Below, one piece after another: positions 50,716 through 60,745 of a DNA stretch of 64,000 nt; within the stretch, counting starts at the first letter, position 1, and every line of letters begins with the position of its first letter. Both the position numbers and the translations under genes were made by a program. The stretch covers positions 1,612,001-1,676,000 of the forward strand of contig NC_017455.1 of assembly GCF_000165465.1 (NCBI RefSeq), in the 5' to 3' direction. The notes beneath the pieces were generated by a model. That model searched no databases. It was not told the origin of the DNA and saw nothing but the letters and a program-made list of their open reading frames with translations. The DNA comes from Halanaerobium praevalens DSM 2228 (lineage in GTDB: Bacteria > Bacillota > Halanaerobiia > Halanaerobiales > Halanaerobiaceae).

Positions 50716-52977
50716 TTATTTTTTCAAAAAGTTTAATAAGGCTTCCGCTACTTTAGGTGAGAATTGAGTACCTTTATTAATCTTAATTTCTTTAATTGCC
50801 TTTTGATAACTAAGAGAATCTCTATAAGTTCTTTTAGAACGCATAGCATCCCAGGCATCTGCAACACATAGTATTTGAGAAACTAATGGGATTTCATTTT
50901 TAGATAAGCCAGTTGGATAACCATTGCCATCCCAACGCTCATGGTGATATAATACATATTTTGCTATTTTTTTTAAACTATGTGAGCTTTTTAATACATT
51001 ACTACCTAAAACTGGGTGTTCCTTAATTACATCATATTCATAATCAGTTAATTTTCCTTCTTTATTTAAGATTTCAAGTGGAATTAACATTTTTCCAATA
51101 TCATGAACCATCCCTGCCCAATATACAGAATCAATCTTAGAATCTTTTAAATTCATTTCTTTAGCAATTTCTACAGCTAAATTAGCTACATTTTCTGAAT
51201 GTCCTCTAGTATATAAATCATACATTTCTAGCATTTTGATAGCTGAAGAAATTATTTCTTTGGTAAAATCTTTTTGTAATAAATTATATTCTTTTAATTT
51301 ATAAAAAGATGAAATAATATTATAAAATGCTTTAAATAATCTTTTTGAATTAGAACTAAAATTTTCATTACTTGTCTGAGCAATATCTAAGCTAATACCA
51401 GCTTTTTTTAATCCATTTATTTCAAGATCTAAATACATAATTTCTTTGATCTTATTTAAAGAATTAGCCTCTAATTTATAAAAATCATTTTTTTCCATAT
51501 ACTTAATATTTCTACTTTTAAGCTCACTTGAATCTACAATTTCTATAATTGAATTATAATTATAAAAAGCTTCATTTTTAATTTCTCTTTGTTTTAATTT
51601 AGTAAGATTATAACCAATACAATCAACAAAGTTAATATATTGATCACCAAAAGTATAAATACTGCCATAATCGGCTTCTGGTATTATTTCTATTGCCTTT
51701 TGTAAAATTTCACTTAAAAACTCTTCTTCACTTATTTCATTTAAATTATCAATTTCATCAAGTAAGGAAACCATTTGTTCAAATCTTTTATTTAAATCTT
51801 CTAATTCTGTAAATGAACTTTCCAACTCCTCATTCATTGCCATAATTTCTTCATTATAAGCTTGCAACTGTTGATTACTAGCTGATAATTCTTCTTTATT
51901 TTCTTGAAGTTGTAATTCATATTTTTTCTTTTCAGTAATATCAAAAACAAAACTTTCAATAATAAAATCATCTGTTTCTTCATTTTCTATAATTTGTGAA
52001 TTCATCATTAACCATAAATTTTTCTTATTTTTATTTTTACATTTAAATTCAAAATTTCTGATCATAAAATCATTTTTTATCTGAGTTAAAAATTCTTCCC
52101 TTCTTTTAAAATCATCATAAAAATCAAAAGCTGAAGCATAATTATTATAAACAGCTTTTATTTGATTAAAACCAGCTATTTCAGCCATTTTTTGATTAAG
52201 TTGTATAATTTCTCCCCCAGCTGTTGTTTTTACTATCCCAATTGGAGCATTATGGTATAAGCGGTTATATTTTTTGTTAGTTTCATTAATAGTTTTTTTA
52301 TACAACATATTCCTTTTTTGATATTTACTAATATTATTCAGCCAGCTCTTAATTTCATATTCTTCAACTTTATTTCTTCGATAACCTTCAGGATCTATAT
52401 AATAAGGATTATCATTGAGCCTTCCTTCCCAAACAATATAGTCATGTAATTCTAGAGCTGCTTTAATAACTTCCTGGTCAAATTTATTAATATTATATCT
52501 ACAAAGGGCACTAACTGGATATTTTTTAAAAACTCTATCATGTAATTTCCATTCATAACTAATTATTTCTTCTTTACCACCTGCAAAATCGATTACTCCT
52601 TTTAACTCCCCTGTAATACTTAAACCCTGATAACCCTCTTTTTTTGCTTTTTTAACTTCTTGAATAATTAATTTAATCATCTTATCAGAATTAAATTGAG
52701 CTGGATTACCATAGCTATCTTCTTTGGTTAAAAATAATAGCTGTTGGGCTTCAACATATTGTTGATAATTATTAAGTTCTTTTTTTAATACTTTTTTTAC
52801 TTTTTGATGAATTTCTTGACTATCAATATATAAACATTTTTCAGCTTTTATTAAACTACTTTTAATAAAAGCAGCAGTAGAATTAATCATCTCAGCTTCT
52901 TTAGTATAAAATAAAACTGTATGATCTCCTAATTTAATTTTATCCAAGTTTATAATATTTACTGGAAAATTATTCAT
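50716..52977 (-). CDS. MEDS-PAS-HD-GYP signalling protein (putative c-di-GMP phosphodiesterase)
   Basis: 753 residues, cytoplasmic, no transmembrane segment. Residues 1 to about 190 resemble the MEDS (DcmR sensory) domain: GDHTVLFYTKEAEMINSTAAFI, KCLYIDSQE, GLSITGELKG, VSALCRYNINKF. A PAS domain with PAC spans about 235-355 (YHNAPIGIVKTTAGGEI), a coiled coil about 355-405, a GAF-like region about 410-560, then HD-GYP from about 575: GHSENVANLAVEIA, AGMVHDIGKMLIP, LYHHERWDGNGYPTGL and DAWDAMRSKRTYR. Metal-binding His and Asp residues are present, so it is probably active. ATG at 52977 after AGAGGTG. Confidence 0.88.
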   Translation of the reverse strand: MNNFPVNIINLDKIKLGDHTVLFYTKEAEMINSTAAFIKSSLIKAEKCLYIDSQEIHQKVKKVLKKELNNYQQYVEAQQLLFLTKEDSYGNPAQFNSDKMIKLIIQEVKKAKKEGYQGLSITGELKGVIDFAGGKEEIISYEWKLHDRVFKKYPVSALCRYNINKFDQEVIKAALELHDYIVWEGRLNDNPYYIDPEGYRRNKVEEYEIKSWLNNISKYQKRNMLYKKTINETNKKYNRLYHNAPIGIVKTTAGGEIIQLNQKMAEIAGFNQIKAVYNNYASAFDFYDDFKRREEFLTQIKNDFMIRNFEFKCKNKNKKNLWLMMNSQIIENEETDDFIIESFVFDITEKKKYELQLQENKEELSASNQQLQAYNEEIMAMNEELESSFTELEDLNKRFEQMVSLLDEIDNLNEISEEEFLSEILQKAIEIIPEADYGSIYTFGDQYINFVDCIGYNLTKLKQREIKNEAFYNYNSIIEIVDSSELKSRNIKYMEKNDFYKLEANSLNKIKEIMYLDLEINGLKKAGISLDIAQTSNENFSSNSKRLFKAFYNIISSFYKLKEYNLLQKDFTKEIISSAIKMLEMYDLYTRGHSENVANLAVEIAKEMNLKDSKIDSVYWAGMVHDIGKMLIPLEILNKEGKLTDYEYDVIKEHPVLGSNVLKSSHSLKKIAKYVLYHHERWDGNGYPTGLSKNEIPLVSQILCVADAWDAMRSKRTYRDSLSYQKAIKEIKINKGTQFSPKVAEALLNFLKK

Positions 52978-53106: not shown

Positions 53107-53139
53107 ATAAAAGCGGCTATCTAGTTTAACTAGATAGCC
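53107..53139 (-). terminator. Terminator after the baeRF gene
   Basis: Perfect 10-bp arms GGCTATCTAG (53115-53124) and complement (53130-53139), 5-nt loop, then GCTTTTATATTT on the minus strand. Confidence 0.82.
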
Positions 53140-53147
53140 TTTATTAT

Positions 53148-54290
53148 TTATTGATATCTATAAATTGCAATTATATCTTCATTTTCAGGCATTTTTTCTT
53201 TTTTAAGTGAATAAACTTGACCACCATTTTTAAGAGTTTCTAAAACAGCAAAATTATAAAGATCATAATCTTTTTTATTATTTAAAACTTTAATTTCATT
53301 TTTAGCTTGAATAAAAACACCTTTTTTTTCAGCTCTTTTATTTAACATTAGAGTCTCTATTTTACTATAAGGAGCAGATTTAACAATTTTTTCTAAATCA
53401 TTAGCAGTTTTATTTTTAGGCTTTAATTCTAAATATTTTGTTTTAAGTTCTTGTAGATAATGATTAAATTTACTTTCAACTAAGTGCCAACTCTTTTCTC
53501 TTAGTTCTTTTTTAGACATTTGTTTTGCATTACCACTTAAATTTTTTTCTAAAAGTTTAGCATAGTTATTTATTTCTTTATAAAGTGAAAAAACATTATC
53601 ACTAGCTGCAACTATTAAATACTGATCACTATTTTTTAATTTTAAATTTATAACCTTATCTATTTCTTTGAGATAACGAATCAAATCTTGATTATCATCA
53701 TCTGAGGCTCCTCCTTGACCATGAAAAACAGTTTTACCACCAGCAGTATTAATAGACTGCTGCTTTTCTGCTGCCCCATTATCAATATTTAAAAAAGCTT
53801 CCATACTTGCAGGAGAATTTTGAAGTTCTATTGCTTGAATATCAGTTTTACTCAGCTCATATAATTGATTATAATTTGGACTTAAAGCTAAAAGATAATA
53901 TCTATTTTGTTTTTGCAAATCTGAAATTAATTGTTTTAAATTAAAATTAGAGTTAACGTCAATTTGATCAAAAGTATCAGAACTAAGTCTTAAATATTTA
54001 AACTTGTTTGCTGAAATAAAGACAGCTAATCCTTCTTTTTGTTTTTGCCAAAAATCAATATCTTTTGTTAAAGAAAAAGCTTTTTCTAAAAATTTATTTA
54101 TCTTCCTTTCTTTAAAGCCCCACTTAGATTCTAATTCAGCTTCAATTTCTTGAAGTAAATTTTTAAATCTAATTTCTAGTTTCTTAAATTCTCCTTGATG
54201 AACAGCTTGAGTCGACATATAAATTGAAACACAGGGACTAGATTGACCTTGAATAAGCTCCTTTAAGACATCTGACTTAATTTCTGTCAT
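53148..54290 (-). CDS. Bacterial archaeo-eukaryotic release factor-like (baeRF) protein
   Basis: 380 residues, soluble. The opening pattern LKELIQGQSSPCVSIYMST with KLEIRFKNLLQEIEAEL, the beta strand GLAVFISANKFKYLRL, YYLLALSPNYNQLYEL, and the glycine-rich loop VFHGQGGASDDDNQDLIRYL followed by YLIVAASDNVFSLY match what I know of baeRF proteins, which keep the eRF1-like domain thought to act on peptidyl-tRNA or ribosomes. The GQGG loop is in the place where a catalytic Gln loop is expected; that alignment is my inference. Function in bacteria is not established. ATG at 54290 behind AGGGGGG. It ends a probable three-gene unit with the P-type ATPase and the MocR-like gene. Confidence 0.68.
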   Translation of the reverse strand: MTEIKSDVLKELIQGQSSPCVSIYMSTQAVHQGEFKKLEIRFKNLLQEIEAELESKWGFKERKINKFLEKAFSLTKDIDFWQKQKEGLAVFISANKFKYLRLSSDTFDQIDVNSNFNLKQLISDLQKQNRYYLLALSPNYNQLYELSKTDIQAIELQNSPASMEAFLNIDNGAAEKQQSINTAGGKTVFHGQGGASDDDNQDLIRYLKEIDKVINLKLKNSDQYLIVAASDNVFSLYKEINNYAKLLEKNLSGNAKQMSKKELREKSWHLVESKFNHYLQELKTKYLELKPKNKTANDLEKIVKSAPYSKIETLMLNKRAEKKGVFIQAKNEIKVLNNKKDYDLYNFAVLETLKNGGQVYSLKKEKMPENEDIIAIYRYQ

Positions 54291-54349: not shown

Positions 54350-55798
54350 TTAACTTAAATTCACAAATTCTTGGCAAATTTTTGTTAGAAAAAAAGCGGC
54401 TTGTTTAAGAAAAAATTGATTTAAGGAAGCTGTTGAAATGATAAGCTTATTACTTTTCTGATCAGTCATGAAATGTTTATAATCAGGAACTAAAATGGAA
54501 TTGTCCTTAGCAAACTTTTTGAATTTTTCCTGATTAATTTTAGTCTCTAATTTAATTTGAAAATAAAATGGTAAATTATTGTTTATAAAATCAATTTTTT
54601 TAAACTGGTTTTTAAGTTCACTTTGTAAAATTAAATTTCTATTCTTGAGTCTCTGTTTTAAAAATTTAATTCTCCTATTTAAATAATCATGTTCTAAATA
54701 ATAATCTAATAAATTATTAACTAAATTTTCTCCAGCGGTTAAATTTGTTTTTTTTATTATCTTTGCCAAATTATATTTTTTAAAAATTGAAAATGATTCT
54801 TCTGGCTTAGTCTCTAAATAAAAAATACCCATTTTTAAACCTGGAAAAACTCTATTTGTTAAAGCTTGAATTAAAATAATATTTTTTCTATATTTTGTTT
54901 TTAATATTTTTTTTATCTTCTTATTTTCTTGATACAATTCAAAATATTGCTGAATTACAATTTTAAAATCTAACTTTTGAGCAAGTTTTAATAAATTCTT
55001 TATTTGAACAAAATCCCAATCTAGAACACTTTCTGCCAATGATTCATCACTAATAAATAAATAATCAATAGGATTATTATTTAAAAAATTTATTATTTTT
55101 TTATAGTTAGAAGCAACTAAATTAATATTATCTTTTTTAGTTAAAAATAAATCTCCATTTTTAAAACTGTATCCACAAACTTCTTGATAAAGATCAAAAA
55201 AGAAAGAGTTGTTATTAGCCTGAAGAAATAATAAATTCTTATTGAAGTCAATTAATTTTTTTGCAATATCTTTTTTTTGGTTTTCTGAGCAATAATATAA
55301 TTGATTTGTTTCTATTGAATTATTTTTTTCTTTTAAAAACTGTAAATATTTATTTTTTTGATTAAATTTTTTGTTTTTAAAGATTTCTCCACCATATATT
55401 TTATAATATTTTTCAAAAATTGAATTCCAGCCATATTTAGCTAAAGTTTCAACTCCATTTTCTAGACCTCTGAAATCAAGGTCTTTTTTAGGAGCCAAAA
55501 ATTTTTTAGAACTTAATATTTTCAAACGCTGATCTTCTTTATTATTTGTTAAAGCTGGAGCAGGAGCAATATAACTCCCACTACCTTCTTTTTTATAAAT
55601 TAAATTTTCAGAAGCTAATAGATTATAGGCTTTAACAATAGTTTCATTATTAACTTTAAGGCGAGAAGCAAGTTTTCTAATTGATGGTAATTTAGTATCA
55701 GGTGTATAATTATTTGCCAATATTTCTTCTCTAATTGCTTCATAAATTTGAGTATATAGATTTTTTGTTTTATCTTTTTTTATTTCAATTTCAAACAT
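54350..55798 (-). CDS. MocR-like GntR regulator with degenerate aminotransferase domain
   Basis: 482 residues. A GntR winged helix is at residues 1-75 (NLYTQIYEAIREEIL, LPSIRKLASRLKVNNETIVKAYNLL, YKKEGSGSYIAP). The rest has the length and secondary-structure pattern of the MocR aminotransferase domain, but its PLP site is lost. Where MocR proteins have the Ser-Lys of the Schiff base before APGLRLG, this one has QALTNRVFPGLKMG, so Lys is Asn315. Where the EDDY aspartate should hold the pyridine nitrogen, it has IQQY (283-285). It therefore should not bind PLP as a Schiff base. ATG at 55798 with TGGAGGG. It lies 52 bp after the P-type ATPase gene. Confidence 0.82.
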   Translation of the reverse strand: MFEIEIKKDKTKNLYTQIYEAIREEILANNYTPDTKLPSIRKLASRLKVNNETIVKAYNLLASENLIYKKEGSGSYIAPAPALTNNKEDQRLKILSSKKFLAPKKDLDFRGLENGVETLAKYGWNSIFEKYYKIYGGEIFKNKKFNQKNKYLQFLKEKNNSIETNQLYYCSENQKKDIAKKLIDFNKNLLFLQANNNSFFFDLYQEVCGYSFKNGDLFLTKKDNINLVASNYKKIINFLNNNPIDYLFISDESLAESVLDWDFVQIKNLLKLAQKLDFKIVIQQYFELYQENKKIKKILKTKYRKNIILIQALTNRVFPGLKMGIFYLETKPEESFSIFKKYNLAKIIKKTNLTAGENLVNNLLDYYLEHDYLNRRIKFLKQRLKNRNLILQSELKNQFKKIDFINNNLPFYFQIKLETKINQEKFKKFAKDNSILVPDYKHFMTDQKSNKLIISTASLNQFFLKQAAFFLTKICQEFVNLS

Positions 55799-55850: not shown

Positions 55851-58595
55851 TTATGCGGTTTCATTTTTTCTTTTAAAGAACTTAATAACTTCATGGCCTA
55901 ATAGGAAAATAAAACCAGCTATAATGATTCTACCCCAGTCTGCTAAAGTAATACCGGCAAAGCCAAGGAATGAATTAATTGGTGAATAAATAACTATTAG
56001 AACCATCAAAATTGAAATTAATATTGAATAAATCATTTTGCTGTTACTAAAGAAATTTCTATTAAAAATGCTCTTGTATTCATAGCGTCTAGACATAATA
56101 TTAACCCACTGTGAAAAAGCAATTGTTAAAAATGAAATTGTAGTTCCTCTAGCATAAAGCTGAGTACCTGTTGTAACAGCTTCAGATTGAGCATTAATAA
56201 ATAGATAGAAGTTTGTAAAGGCCAGTCCACCCATTAAAAGGGCTAAAAACATAATTTCACTAAAACTGTGCTTATTAACTATATGATCCTCCTGTTTTCG
56301 AGGTGGTGACTTCATTAAATGCTCAGAAGCTGGATCAAAAGTCAGTGCTGTCAGTGGTAAAATTTCAGCTATCAAGTCAATTGATAAAATCTGAATAGCC
56401 AGAATTGGAATTGGAGTTCCAAGTATCGCTGCAGCTAAAAGTCCTAATAATACGATTGTTAATTCTGCCCCATTTGTAGTTAAAGAAGCAATTACAGTTT
56501 TCTTTAAATTATTATAAATATTTCTTCCTTCTTTAATTGCATAAACTAAAGTTGGAAAACTATCATCAAGTAATATTAATTCTGATGCTTCTTTAGAAAC
56601 ATCTGTTCCCATCTGCCCCATAGCTACCCCGATATGAGCACTTTTAAGAGCAGGAGCATCATTAACTCCATCACCTGTTACAGCTACAATTTTTTGCTGC
56701 TCTTTTAAATTCTTAACAATTCTCAATTTATTTTCTGGTGAAACACGTGAGAAAATAAGAGACTTATTTTCTTCCATTGTCTTTCGCAATTCAGATTCAC
56801 TCATTGCTTCTAAATCTTCACTAGTAAAGACAGGTACATCTTGGTCATCAATTGACAGGCTAATTTCTTTTCCAACAGCTTGAGCTGTAATTGCATGATC
56901 ACCAGTCATCATATAAGTATCAATTTGGGCCGCATGTGCTTCCTTAATAGACTCTTTAACTCCTTCTTTTGGAGGGTCAATCATCGCTACCAGACCAAGG
57001 AAAATAACATCTTTTTCTATTTCCTCTAAAACATAATCTGTTTCTTCATCTTCTAATTTACGATAAGCAATTGCTAAAACACGCAAGGCATCTTGAGAAT
57101 ATTTTTCATTTAATTTATTCAGTTTTTCTTTATCTTCTTTAGTGATTTCTACTACTTTACCATTTTTAAGAATATGTTTGGAAATAGAAAGTACACTTCC
57201 TAAGGCACCCTTCATCTTTAAATAATTCCCATCCTCAAATTCTCTGACTGAGCTCATTCTTTTACGGTCAGAATCAAAACCAAATTCATGCAATTCTGGG
57301 TTTTCCTCATCTTCTTTAGGCGAGCGAGTCCCCAGTTTTGTAGAAAGAGTAATTAAGGCTGCTTCAGTCGGATCTCCAATTGCATACCAGCCTGAATGAT
57401 CTGCATCTGGTTCATGAATCTCTGCATTTGAAGCCATAGTAGCTGCATCAAATATAATTTCCATTTCTGCAATCTCTGCTTCAGATAAAGGATCTCCATC
57501 TTCACCTAAAAGTTCACCATCAGGTTCATAACCAAGACCAGTAACCTGATATTCCTTGCCATCAAAATATACTTTTTTAACTGTCATTTCATTTTTAGTC
57601 AAAGTTCCAGTTTTATCTGTGCAAATAACATTTGTTGAACCTAAAGTTTCTGCAGAAGATAATTTTTTAACAACTGCATTTTTACCAGCCAGGCGATCAA
57701 CTCCCTGTGAAAGTGCAACTGTAACCTGCATCGGTAAAGCCTGAGGTACAACTGCTACTGCTATCCCCAGCGCATAAATTAAAGCAAAATCAAGTCCATA
57801 TCCCTGATAGATGCTGATTCCAAATAAAGCCAGAGCAATAACTACTGCAAAAACAGCAATTTTATTGGCAACAGACTGCAACTCAGACTGCAGTGGGGAT
57901 TTAGATTTATCTTCTGCTTGAGTCATAGAAGCAATTTTACCCATTTCTGTATCCATTCCTGTTCTAGCAACAACACCTTTGGCCGAACCTGAAGCTACAG
58001 TCGTTCCTAAATAAGCCATATTATCTCTGTCTGCTAAAGGTCTTTCCTCTGCTAGCTGATTTGACTCCTTTTCTTGGGGCATTGATTCACCTGTTAGAGA
58101 AACATCATTTGTCCTTAAATTAAATGATTCTATAATTCTCAAATCAGCTGGGATTTTATCTCCTTCTTCAAGACTTACAATATCTCCTACAACTAATTCT
58201 TGCTGTGCAATTTCTCCAATCTGATCATCTCTAATTACTTTAGAAGGAGAGTTAACTAATTTATTTAAAGAATCCATAATTTTTTCTGCTTTATATTCCT
58301 GTCTAAAACCAATTACAGAATTAAGCACTGCAATAATCATCATTATTGTTCCATCACGATAACTACCAATTATAAAGGACATTAGAGCAGCTATTAAAAG
58401 TAAAATCACCAACACATCTTTAAACTGAAGCAGAAAAATTTTAACTAAAGATTTTTGAGCTTTAGCTTGAAGCTTGTTTTCTCCATTCTTTTCAAGCCTC
58501 TTTTTTGCTTCAGTAGCAGTTAATCCCTTGCTAGATGTACCTAAAGCTTCTAAAACATCTTTTGCTTTTTGTCTATAAAACTCTTTCGCTGCCAT
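55851..58595 (-). CDS. P-type cation ATPase, P2 type, with atypical ion-site residues
   Basis: 914 residues, ten transmembrane helices, P2 (SERCA/PMR1-like) organisation. Actuator motif SLTGES, phosphorylation site ICTDKTGTLT (Asp327), TGDHAITA and VTGDGVNDAPAL in the P domain. Helix 4 reads AVVPQALPMQV, where Ca2+ pumps have PEGLP, so the ion-binding Glu is Gln285. Helix 6 reads SIDLIAEILPLTAL, with Asp and Glu at the positions of Asn and Asp in SERCA (NLVTDGLPATAL). The exported ion is therefore uncertain: Ca2+, Na+ or another. ATG at 58595 with AAGGGGTG. First gene of a likely ATPase-regulator-baeRF unit. Confidence 0.9.
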   Translation of the reverse strand: MAAKEFYRQKAKDVLEALGTSSKGLTATEAKKRLEKNGENKLQAKAQKSLVKIFLLQFKDVLVILLLIAALMSFIIGSYRDGTIMMIIAVLNSVIGFRQEYKAEKIMDSLNKLVNSPSKVIRDDQIGEIAQQELVVGDIVSLEEGDKIPADLRIIESFNLRTNDVSLTGESMPQEKESNQLAEERPLADRDNMAYLGTTVASGSAKGVVARTGMDTEMGKIASMTQAEDKSKSPLQSELQSVANKIAVFAVVIALALFGISIYQGYGLDFALIYALGIAVAVVPQALPMQVTVALSQGVDRLAGKNAVVKKLSSAETLGSTNVICTDKTGTLTKNEMTVKKVYFDGKEYQVTGLGYEPDGELLGEDGDPLSEAEIAEMEIIFDAATMASNAEIHEPDADHSGWYAIGDPTEAALITLSTKLGTRSPKEDEENPELHEFGFDSDRKRMSSVREFEDGNYLKMKGALGSVLSISKHILKNGKVVEITKEDKEKLNKLNEKYSQDALRVLAIAYRKLEDEETDYVLEEIEKDVIFLGLVAMIDPPKEGVKESIKEAHAAQIDTYMMTGDHAITAQAVGKEISLSIDDQDVPVFTSEDLEAMSESELRKTMEENKSLIFSRVSPENKLRIVKNLKEQQKIVAVTGDGVNDAPALKSAHIGVAMGQMGTDVSKEASELILLDDSFPTLVYAIKEGRNIYNNLKKTVIASLTTNGAELTIVLLGLLAAAILGTPIPILAIQILSIDLIAEILPLTALTFDPASEHLMKSPPRKQEDHIVNKHSFSEIMFLALLMGGLAFTNFYLFINAQSEAVTTGTQLYARGTTISFLTIAFSQWVNIMSRRYEYKSIFNRNFFSNSKMIYSILISILMVLIVIYSPINSFLGFAGITLADWGRIIIAGFIFLLGHEVIKFFKRKNETA

Positions 58596-58660: not shown

Positions 58661-59182
58661 TTATTCAGCTAAAGCAGAAACTAATTCTCTACAATAAGCT
58701 GGAATATCTTTCACAACTCTTCCCCAAACAAGATTATTATCTCTAAAGGCAGCTTCATCTACCCAGCTTCCACCTGCATTAATAATATCATCTTTAATTC
58801 CTTCAGAACCAGTTGCTGGGCCACTTACAATTCCAGCAGAAATACCAACTAAACCCGCATGACAGATTAAACCAATTATTTTTCCTGCTTCATAATTTTT
58901 ACGAACCAATTCAACAATATCTTCATCTCTTCTTATCTTATCAGGAGTCCAACCACCTGGAACCAAAACTCCATCATATTCTTCTTCTAAAACCTCTGTT
59001 GCTGTAAAATCAGCTTTTTTAGTCAAACAACCGTGTTTACTGCTGTATTCTTTATTTTTTTCCATACCAACCACATCAATTTCAGCACCTTCTTCTTTCA
59101 TTCTCATATATACAACCCAGAACTCTAAATCTTCATATCCAGGACCAATTAACATTGCAATTTTTTTACCTTTTAATTTCAT
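58661..59182 (-). CDS. DJ-1/PfpI family protein
   Basis: 173 residues, single DJ-1 domain. The conserved Glu is in GPGYEDLEFWVVYMRM and the nucleophile Cys in GLICHAGLVGIS, followed directly by the family His. DGVLVPGGWTPDKIRRD is another family motif. Members include chaperones, proposed deglycases and glyoxalase III-type enzymes that act on methylglyoxal; sequence does not decide which. ATG at 59182 after GAGAGGTG. It lies 65 bp upstream of the ATPase gene, same strand. Confidence 0.9.
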   Translation of the reverse strand: MKLKGKKIAMLIGPGYEDLEFWVVYMRMKEEGAEIDVVGMEKNKEYSSKHGCLTKKADFTATEVLEEEYDGVLVPGGWTPDKIRRDEDIVELVRKNYEAGKIIGLICHAGLVGISAGIVSGPATGSEGIKDDIINAGGSWVDEAAFRDNNLVWGRVVKDIPAYCRELVSALAE

Positions 59183-59263: not shown

Positions 59264-60646
59264 CTAATTTATTTTAAAATTCTCAACCTGAAAATATTTT
59301 TCTTTTTGTTTTTTATGTCCTGTTTCTTTAGCTAGGCGATAAATTTTGTGATTTAAAAACTTTTTATCTTCTTGTTCAAGTACATTTTTATCAAACCCAC
59401 CTAAAATATAATGACTAAATTTCCAAACTTGTTCTTTAACATCTTGAGGACTACCTTCTGCTATAATAACTAAAGCATCAATTATAGAACCAGCAACAGA
59501 AACATCTTGTTTTCCATAATGACTTAACTGATAAAATGTTTTATATAGAAGATCCCAAAAAGAAATATCTTCTAAAATAAAACAAAGCTCATCTTTATCA
59601 TTATAATAATAAGTATTTTCTAAATTTGCTACTGCAATTCTAGATAAAACCCAACCTAGTTGATTAATACAAAATATTGCTGTATTAGGATCATTAATCC
59701 CTGGAGAAATTGCTCTTAAGGCAACTTCAGTTAATTTTAATAAGCCAAACTCTATATCATCATTTTTGCTTCTCTCATTACTGATTACTAAATGATCACG
59801 AATATTATTTTTGATTTCTACTAATTTTTCATCCTTAAATTTGTCCATTTGTTCATCTAGCTGCCAGAATTTGAAAACAACTGTATTTTCAGTTATATAA
59901 TCACCTATCATTTTTTCAGCTCTTATAATTATGTCATATTGGTCTGCTAACTGGGTTAATTTTAAATCGTAAATAATCTGAATATAACCACTTTTTTTGG
60001 GATGTAATTCATAAAAATCTCGGTCTAGGCTTGCTTTCAAATCATCTGGAGGCTGATTACGAATTTGATCATTGCTATTATTTCTTTTTTCAAGTTTATC
60101 TACTATTTCAATTACATCTTCTTTCAGACTCTCAACTAAGAGGTTTACTTGTACAGAATTAGCTGCATGATGAATAAAATAAACAAAATAACCAAGACAT
60201 ACAATTGCTATAATTACTCCGATCATGGCAGAAAAAATAGTTGATTCACCTGATTTCAAAAGTCTATCATCAATAAATAATAAAGTTAAAATAGAATAAA
60301 TAAAACCAGCAATAAAAATACCTAAAACTTTTAAAGTTACTTTGTTTTTAAGAAAGTCCTGCATTGTCCTCGGAGAAAATTGAGAAGAATACATTGTCAA
60401 AACAACCATAATAGTTGAAAAAGATACTGTAATCATTGCAAATAAAGAACCTGCTATAGTTGATAAAATCGTCTTTGAAAGATCATAGGAAGTAAAGAAA
60501 AATGATGGTAGTACATTAATTAATAAACTACTATACTGGTACTCAAGATAAATAACTAAAATTGAGACTAGAGTAGCAATTAAGGCATAAAGTGAGGGAA
60601 TAAAATATATTTTATTTTCTATATTATGTAAAAATTTTAATTTCAA
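59264..60646 (-). CDS. DUF2254 family membrane protein
   Basis: 460 residues. Four transmembrane segments in the first 165 residues (about 17-38, 58-84, 105-125, 138-160), then a soluble C-terminal domain of about 290 residues. Family traits: AGSLFAMITVSFSTIMVVLTMYSSQFSPRTMQDFL and GLLKLTEVALRAISPGINDPNTA (both taken in part). Function unknown; the fold of the membrane part recalls small channel-like proteins, which is only an impression. TTG start at 60646, 4 nt after AGGAGTGA. Divergent from the aldo/keto reductase gene. Confidence 0.82.
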   Translation of the reverse strand: MKLKFLHNIENKIYFIPSLYALIATLVSILVIYLEYQYSSLLINVLPSFFFTSYDLSKTILSTIAGSLFAMITVSFSTIMVVLTMYSSQFSPRTMQDFLKNKVTLKVLGIFIAGFIYSILTLLFIDDRLLKSGESTIFSAMIGVIIAIVCLGYFVYFIHHAANSVQVNLLVESLKEDVIEIVDKLEKRNNSNDQIRNQPPDDLKASLDRDFYELHPKKSGYIQIIYDLKLTQLADQYDIIIRAEKMIGDYITENTVVFKFWQLDEQMDKFKDEKLVEIKNNIRDHLVISNERSKNDDIEFGLLKLTEVALRAISPGINDPNTAIFCINQLGWVLSRIAVANLENTYYYNDKDELCFILEDISFWDLLYKTFYQLSHYGKQDVSVAGSIIDALVIIAEGSPQDVKEQVWKFSHYILGGFDKNVLEQEDKKFLNHKIYRLAKETGHKKQKEKYFQVENFKIN

Positions 60647-60745
60647 ATTGTCACTCCTCTAACTAAAATTATCTGAAAAATTTAATTATTCATTATTAAT
60701 TAATTTCAAGATAATTAATTAATCTCCTTTATTTCTTAATTAAAG

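Follow-up and report, generated by a model that had tools for sequence, protein, structure and literature searches.

A MocR-type regulator without a PLP site in the gene unit of a Balon-type ribosome hibernation factor in Halanaerobium praevalens

Halanaerobium praevalens GSL is a strictly anaerobic, non-sporulating halophile (PMC3156398). The window, a 64,000 nt stretch (positions 1612001-1676000) of its single-contig genome (2,309,262 bp), encodes a MocR-type transcriptional regulator that appears from alignment to have lost its PLP site. The explanation that we prefer, with a probability of roughly 0.55, is that the protein derives from MocR and acts locally, independently of PLP, as the regulator of a stress or hibernation unit. 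The likely control point lies upstream of the DUF2254 gene, and the relevant partner would be the baeRF/Balon gene more than the P-type ATPase gene. The features of the unit are collected in Table 1.

Table 1. Features of the regulator/baeRF unit (positions are those of the window).
Feature	Position	Strand	Basis or remark
Terminator-like hairpin, 11 pairs, directly 3' of baeRF	53115..53139	-	scored on the + strand too
baeRF family 7 / Balon-type ribosome hibernation factor, closing the unit	53148..54290	-	PF18849, 3.6e-50
MocR-type regulator without PLP site, 482 aa	54350..55798	-	Pfam, alignments, structure model
Regulator domain layout: GntR winged helix-turn-helix ~1-80; linker region ~80-144, poorly modelled; aminotransferase-fold domain to 482			residue numbers
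Asn315 codon (AAT), aligned with GabR Lys312 / PdxR SFSK lysine	54854..54856	-	ORF coordinates and alignments
Gln283 codon (CAG), aligned with GabR Asp279 (EDD motif)	54950..54952	-	ORF coordinates and alignments
P-type ATPase, Ca2+-ATPase-like (IIA)	55851..58595	-	profile and solved-structure matches
DJ-1/PfpI family protein	58661..59182	-	domain profiles
DUF2254 membrane protein opening the unit; called with a TTG start	59264..60646	-	PF10011, 5.5e-106
Conserved 29-bp footprint AAAGGAGATTAATTAATTATCTTGAAATT, sigma-H-like promoter and candidate operator	60702..60730	-	cross-genome alignment

Results

Loss of the PLP site

A preliminary description of this DNA had placed the regulator on the minus strand with an intact GntR helix-turn-helix. 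Strand and length of the reading frame were as described, and PF00392 is matched at residues 14-77 (E 5.5e-16). The remainder of the protein is less easily recognized, and the sequence gives no Pfam aminotransferase match. It had also been proposed that Asn315 replaces the Schiff base lysine and that IQQY replaces EDDY with loss of the aspartate. In a phmmer alignment with GabR (PDB 4n0b), query residue 305 falls on residue 302 of the chain and the alignment is free of gaps from there to residue 315, which sets Asn315 against Lys312. The stretch that holds this pair scores a weak 3.6 bits by itself, and the same pairing was repeated in two MAFFT alignments with canonical PdxR paralogs. IQQY aligned with EDD(Y/I), with Gln283 at the position of GabR Asp279. 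Both replacements were thus borne out.

The ortholog set comprised 11 full-length proteins, ten from Halanaerobium, including that of H. praevalens, and one from a sister genus (genome G013). At the lysine position these proteins carry N, S, S, E, N, E, E, A, N, D and R, where K stands in 28/28 PdxR sequences used. The NPTG asparagine, the phosphate-loop Ser-Gly, the PGLR arginine and the C-terminal arginine, all present in the PdxR set, are likewise lost in 11/11 orthologs. Because 27/28 PdxR sequences were chosen by a motif that includes the Lys, NPTG and the PGLR Arg, the comparison is circular at those columns but not at the others. The aspartate column holds Q, Y, V, L, F or I. Orthologs with the same loss, which the preliminary description had suggested looking for, therefore do occur, as the Schiff base lysine and the pyridine aspartate are gone in 11/11. 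A different lysine at the cofactor site was ruled out, because the lysine column is occupied by N, S, E, A, D or R. Among the columns that are invariant in PdxR, 20% of cells were kept over 67 sensor-domain columns and 85% over 13 helix-turn-helix columns. As judged by alignment, the loss is wider than first stated and takes in every canonical PLP-site residue examined. Loss of PLP chemistry in the regulator family is strongly supported by these comparisons.

Retention of the fold

An AlphaFold model was built from the 11 orthologs. Its mean pLDDT was 71.7, with residues 80-144 and parts of the domain poor. Using this predicted model, Foldseek returned GabR and PdxR as the top full-length matches (best E 2.8e-16, for GabR), and VIA gave Z values of about 20-21 against fold type I proteins, GabR and PdxR among them. 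Full-length structural matches had an rmsd of 17-19 A and the C-terminal domain by itself ~4 A, presumably because domain orientation differs. The predicted model indicates that the aminotransferase fold type I is kept. With residues other than Asp and Lys at the Asp279 and Lys312 positions in 11/11 orthologs, the regulator would be classed as MocR-derived and outside the PLP-dependent MocR regulators.

Origin and selection

The degenerate proteins form one clade in the tree (100/100) that joins the Halanaerobiaceae PdxR proteins, and PdxR of other families are separated by a 99/100 branch. The joining branch is long, which leaves the exact attachment uncertain; long-branch attraction would not specially favour this placement. 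The regulator family thus appears to have arisen by duplication of the local Halanaerobiaceae PdxR. A survey of 398 genomes of the phylum found no relatives outside Halanaerobiaceae above PdxR-level or helix-turn-helix-only matches. An alignment-based contig search returned nine Halanaerobium records and three weak helix-turn-helix-only matches, and the contig search with a single protein as the query gave no matches.

The regulator has a dN/dS of 0.03-0.07 in the helix-turn-helix and 0.14-0.27 in the sensor domain, and the corresponding values for PdxR pairs are 0.06-0.18 and 0.07-0.14. The orthologs share 81% identity across the helix-turn-helix and 48% across the sensor domain, against 69% and 72% for the PdxR proteins of those genomes. 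Purifying selection on the sensor domain implies some function, which may be no more than maintenance of the fold. A reading frame that is open in 11 genomes rules out a sequencing artefact as the source of the loss and, together with dN/dS, rules out a decaying pseudogene.

Separation from PdxR and its operator

With the PdxR profile NF052282 (cut-off 320) the regulator scored 111.8 bits, below the cut-off, and a paralog at G000:C1:175824 scored 343.7, above it. This canonical PdxR paralog (G000:C1:173803-179170) is divergent from pdxS. Between pdxS and pdxR, 9/9 genomes carry the block ATTGTAATGATACAAT and repeated AATACAA boxes, a predicted PdxR operator. Allowing one mismatch at most, ATTGTAATGATACAAT occurs at pdxS-pdxR in the nine genomes with PdxR and was not found in G005 or G011. 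The operator was not found in the regulator/baeRF unit, and its matches in the window do not go beyond chance. Use of the PdxR operator by the regulator was ruled out by its absence from the baeRF unit.

G005 and G011 have no detectable PdxR, yet they keep the degenerate regulator, indicating that the regulator does not need PdxR. An obligate heterodimer with PdxR is disfavoured by the same two genomes, in which neither PdxR nor its operator was detected. At residue 52, in the recognition helix, every degenerate protein has Glu where the Halanaerobiaceae PdxR set has Ala, and wing residue 71 is Glu versus Val in PdxR. Given these differences in recognition residues and operator, the regulator and PdxR seem to have separate DNA targets.

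Linkage to baeRF

The unit has the order DUF2254-(DJ-1-ATPase)-regulator-baeRF, followed by the terminator-like hairpin. baeRF is the next conserved gene downstream of the regulator in 12/12 genomes, counting G003, where the regulator is split between contigs, and G004, where a transposase-like (IS-type) gene lies between the two; adjacency inside one family is partly inherited, so these are not 12 independent events. DUF2254 or its remnant lies upstream of the regulator wherever the contig extends that far. The P-type ATPase is absent beside the regulator in G007, G010 and G013, and DJ-1 is variable too. Orthologs with the same neighbours had been anticipated, and this holds for baeRF and fails for the ATPase in three genomes. 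The proposal that the regulator controls the ATPase/baeRF unit is plausible, but the constant partner is baeRF and not the ATPase. Both regulator and baeRF are missing in G002 (75% complete) and G012 (96%), and baeRF occurs without an adjoining regulator in 12 genomes of other families.

The baeRF protein matched Psychrobacter Balon (8rd8_B) over its full length (E 1.1e-10, residues 8-379 to 4-369). Against NF052287 it scored 127.6 bits, under the cut-off of 330.

Several other features of the neighbourhood were observed. Transposase-like genes lie between regulator and baeRF in G004 and beside the DUF2254 remnant in G007 (L039:5471-6760; L046:9007-10188), suggesting ongoing disruption of the unit in certain strains. 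The fourth membrane segment of the P-type ATPase reads PQALP versus PEALS of the aligned Ca2+-ATPase, so that the usual ion-binding glutamate is Gln. Listeria lmo0841 was among the best solved-structure matches of this ATPase. Past the terminator, on the same strand, 50716-52977 encodes a 753-aa protein with PAS-like and HD-GYP-like parts by eye, a possible signalling protein.

A conserved element upstream of DUF2254

The preliminary description had placed the control site upstream of 58595, before the ATPase gene. Conservation there is confined to the stretch beside the start codon, and this region was rejected as the binding region. The conserved element is instead the footprint listed in Table 1, whose end lies 55 nt before the DUF2254 start in H. 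praevalens. Its consensus, AAAGGAkATTnnnnAATTnTsTTGAAwTT, was derived from 11 genomes. Modal identity is 90% over the 29 bp versus 57% in the 70 bp on each side, the first value being somewhat flattered because the block was self-aligned. Each of 11 genomes has one strong copy (0-2 mismatches), located upstream of the baeRF unit, and the other matches have three mismatches. The pattern was not found in G013, although regulator and baeRF are present there. DUF2254 genes of G012, G014 and G024, which lie outside the baeRF-unit context, have no footprint. In several genomes the regulator-baeRF gap contains an extended -10-like box and an AGTAnTGAGTA-type element. These were set aside as operator candidates because they are missing in H. 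praevalens, where the gap is 59 nt.

The sigma-H consensus is RNAGGAWWW-N11/12-RNNGAATWW. It is present in full in 2/10 upstream regions and in relaxed form in 4/10, versus 0.65% expected, and the remaining regions depart from it by AGGAGATT. Sigma-H promoters of C. difficile also include GAAAT in the GAAT position (PMC7438776). A sigma-H gene is present (333 bits, cut-off 294.8). Sigma-H control of baeRF is not a general rule, as the motif was found upstream of baeRF in 1/12 cases in other families. Genome-wide, the strict sigma-H-type motif occurs 30 times versus 7 in the reversed control, an enrichment of about fourfold, though the species is described as non-sporulating. More than half of the matches lie 35-240 nt before a start codon, and the genes that follow include, by eye, ferritin-like, MraZ-like, HU-like and universal-stress-like genes.

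A promoter alone would not be expected to have a conserved spacer, so the footprint is the strongest operator candidate. Its spacer speaks for the binding of a further protein, while the footprint could also be a promoter alone. If the sigma-H-like promoter is true, the transcript would start shortly after GTTGAAATT.

Discussion

A proposed PLP-independent local regulator and its alternatives

We propose that a PLP-sensing PdxR was duplicated within the Halanaerobiaceae lineage. One copy would have lost the whole PLP and substrate site while retaining its aminotransferase fold as a body that is folded and probably dimeric, with stronger constraint coming to act on its GntR winged helix-turn-helix. 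The changes to Glu52 and Glu71 and the lack of a PdxR operator point to a different DNA target, and the regulator would most likely bind at or near the sigma-H-like footprint upstream of DUF2254, as either repressor or activator. The outcome would be the expression level of a stress/stationary-phase set ending in the ribosome hibernation factor. The regulator would work without any ligand, though a ligand site may lie elsewhere in the protein; the main options for its signal, if there is one, are protein contact or simple auto-regulation. A broader claim would be that a MocR lineage gave up the PLP/amino-ligand principle and became a dedicated ribosome-hibernation regulator, with the former enzyme fold as dimer body or protein sensor in a sigma-H-type unit. 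We hold this only tentatively, as a possibility that falls short of being probable.

The preliminary description supposed that the protein senses something else, and a different small molecule might indeed be sensed in a remodelled aminotransferase pocket. Purifying selection on the sensor domain is consistent with such a ligand, as are some pocket-edge columns in which a new residue has become fixed (Tyr/Phe in place of the phosphate-loop Ser and Ile in place of the C-terminal Arg, 11/11 each). A shared ligand should, however, conserve its contacts, and most of the former pocket columns are hypervariable. Their modal frequency is 0.53, against 0.64 elsewhere in the domain, and a level as low as 0.53 is reached by 3.9% of random column sets. 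The former PLP site is thus an unlikely place for a new ligand shared by the orthologs. Non-covalent binding of PLP or an amino compound by an ordinary MocR protein with a worn site would agree with the kept fold, and structure entries exist of K270N and K270Q diaminopimelate aminotransferase, also fold type I, crystallised with ligands. In those mutants the Lys alone is altered, whereas the regulator has also lost the Asp, Asn, Ser-Gly and Arg positions, making a worn but working site very improbable.

The regulator could instead be partner-dependent, as had also been suggested, and respond to a bound protein, for example the product of baeRF/Balon or one of the membrane proteins that the unit encodes. 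The strict association with baeRF speaks for this, and so does conservation away from the old pocket, e.g. at residues 354-392. PdxR is an unlikely partner since it is absent in G005 and G011; dependence on another protein is kept as a rival, albeit a doubtful one. A local regulator that is independent of PLP remains our preferred explanation. Its fold and DNA-binding domain, kept across the genus without the PLP-site residues, provide a natural test of the non-PLP roles of an aminotransferase domain. Should this unit prove to be what it controls, the protein would be a candidate for a transcriptional regulator dedicated to a Balon-type hibernation factor, of which no report was found in the literature searched.

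Comparison with known systems

Like PdxR (e.g. Bacillus clausii PdxR; NF052282), the regulator has a GntR winged helix-turn-helix and a fold type I domain, and its helix-turn-helix stretch matches the PdxR model. Unlike PdxR, it is without all of the PLP-site residues, has Glu52 and Glu71 where PdxR has mainly Ala/Val and Val, and adjoins baeRF rather than pdxS with no PdxR operator. GabR of Bacillus subtilis is the best full-length fold match of the predicted model and has the same domain order. GabR relies on Lys312 and Asp279 to bind PLP and on Arg430 to bind GABA (PMC6677901), whereas the positions aligned to all three are altered in the regulator. In a survey of MocR proteins, Lys312 and Asp279 were conserved in all clusters, and the site was counted among the minimal requirements of a functional MocR fold (PMC6677901).

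Balon genes are reported as typical members of stress-response operons (PMC10901736, Nature 2024), with neighbours that include RaiA, Hsp20, OsmY, HdeD, RtcB and others. A dedicated MocR-type regulator was not found among them in the passages searched. As in these operons, the Balon-family gene described here lies within a putative stress operon.
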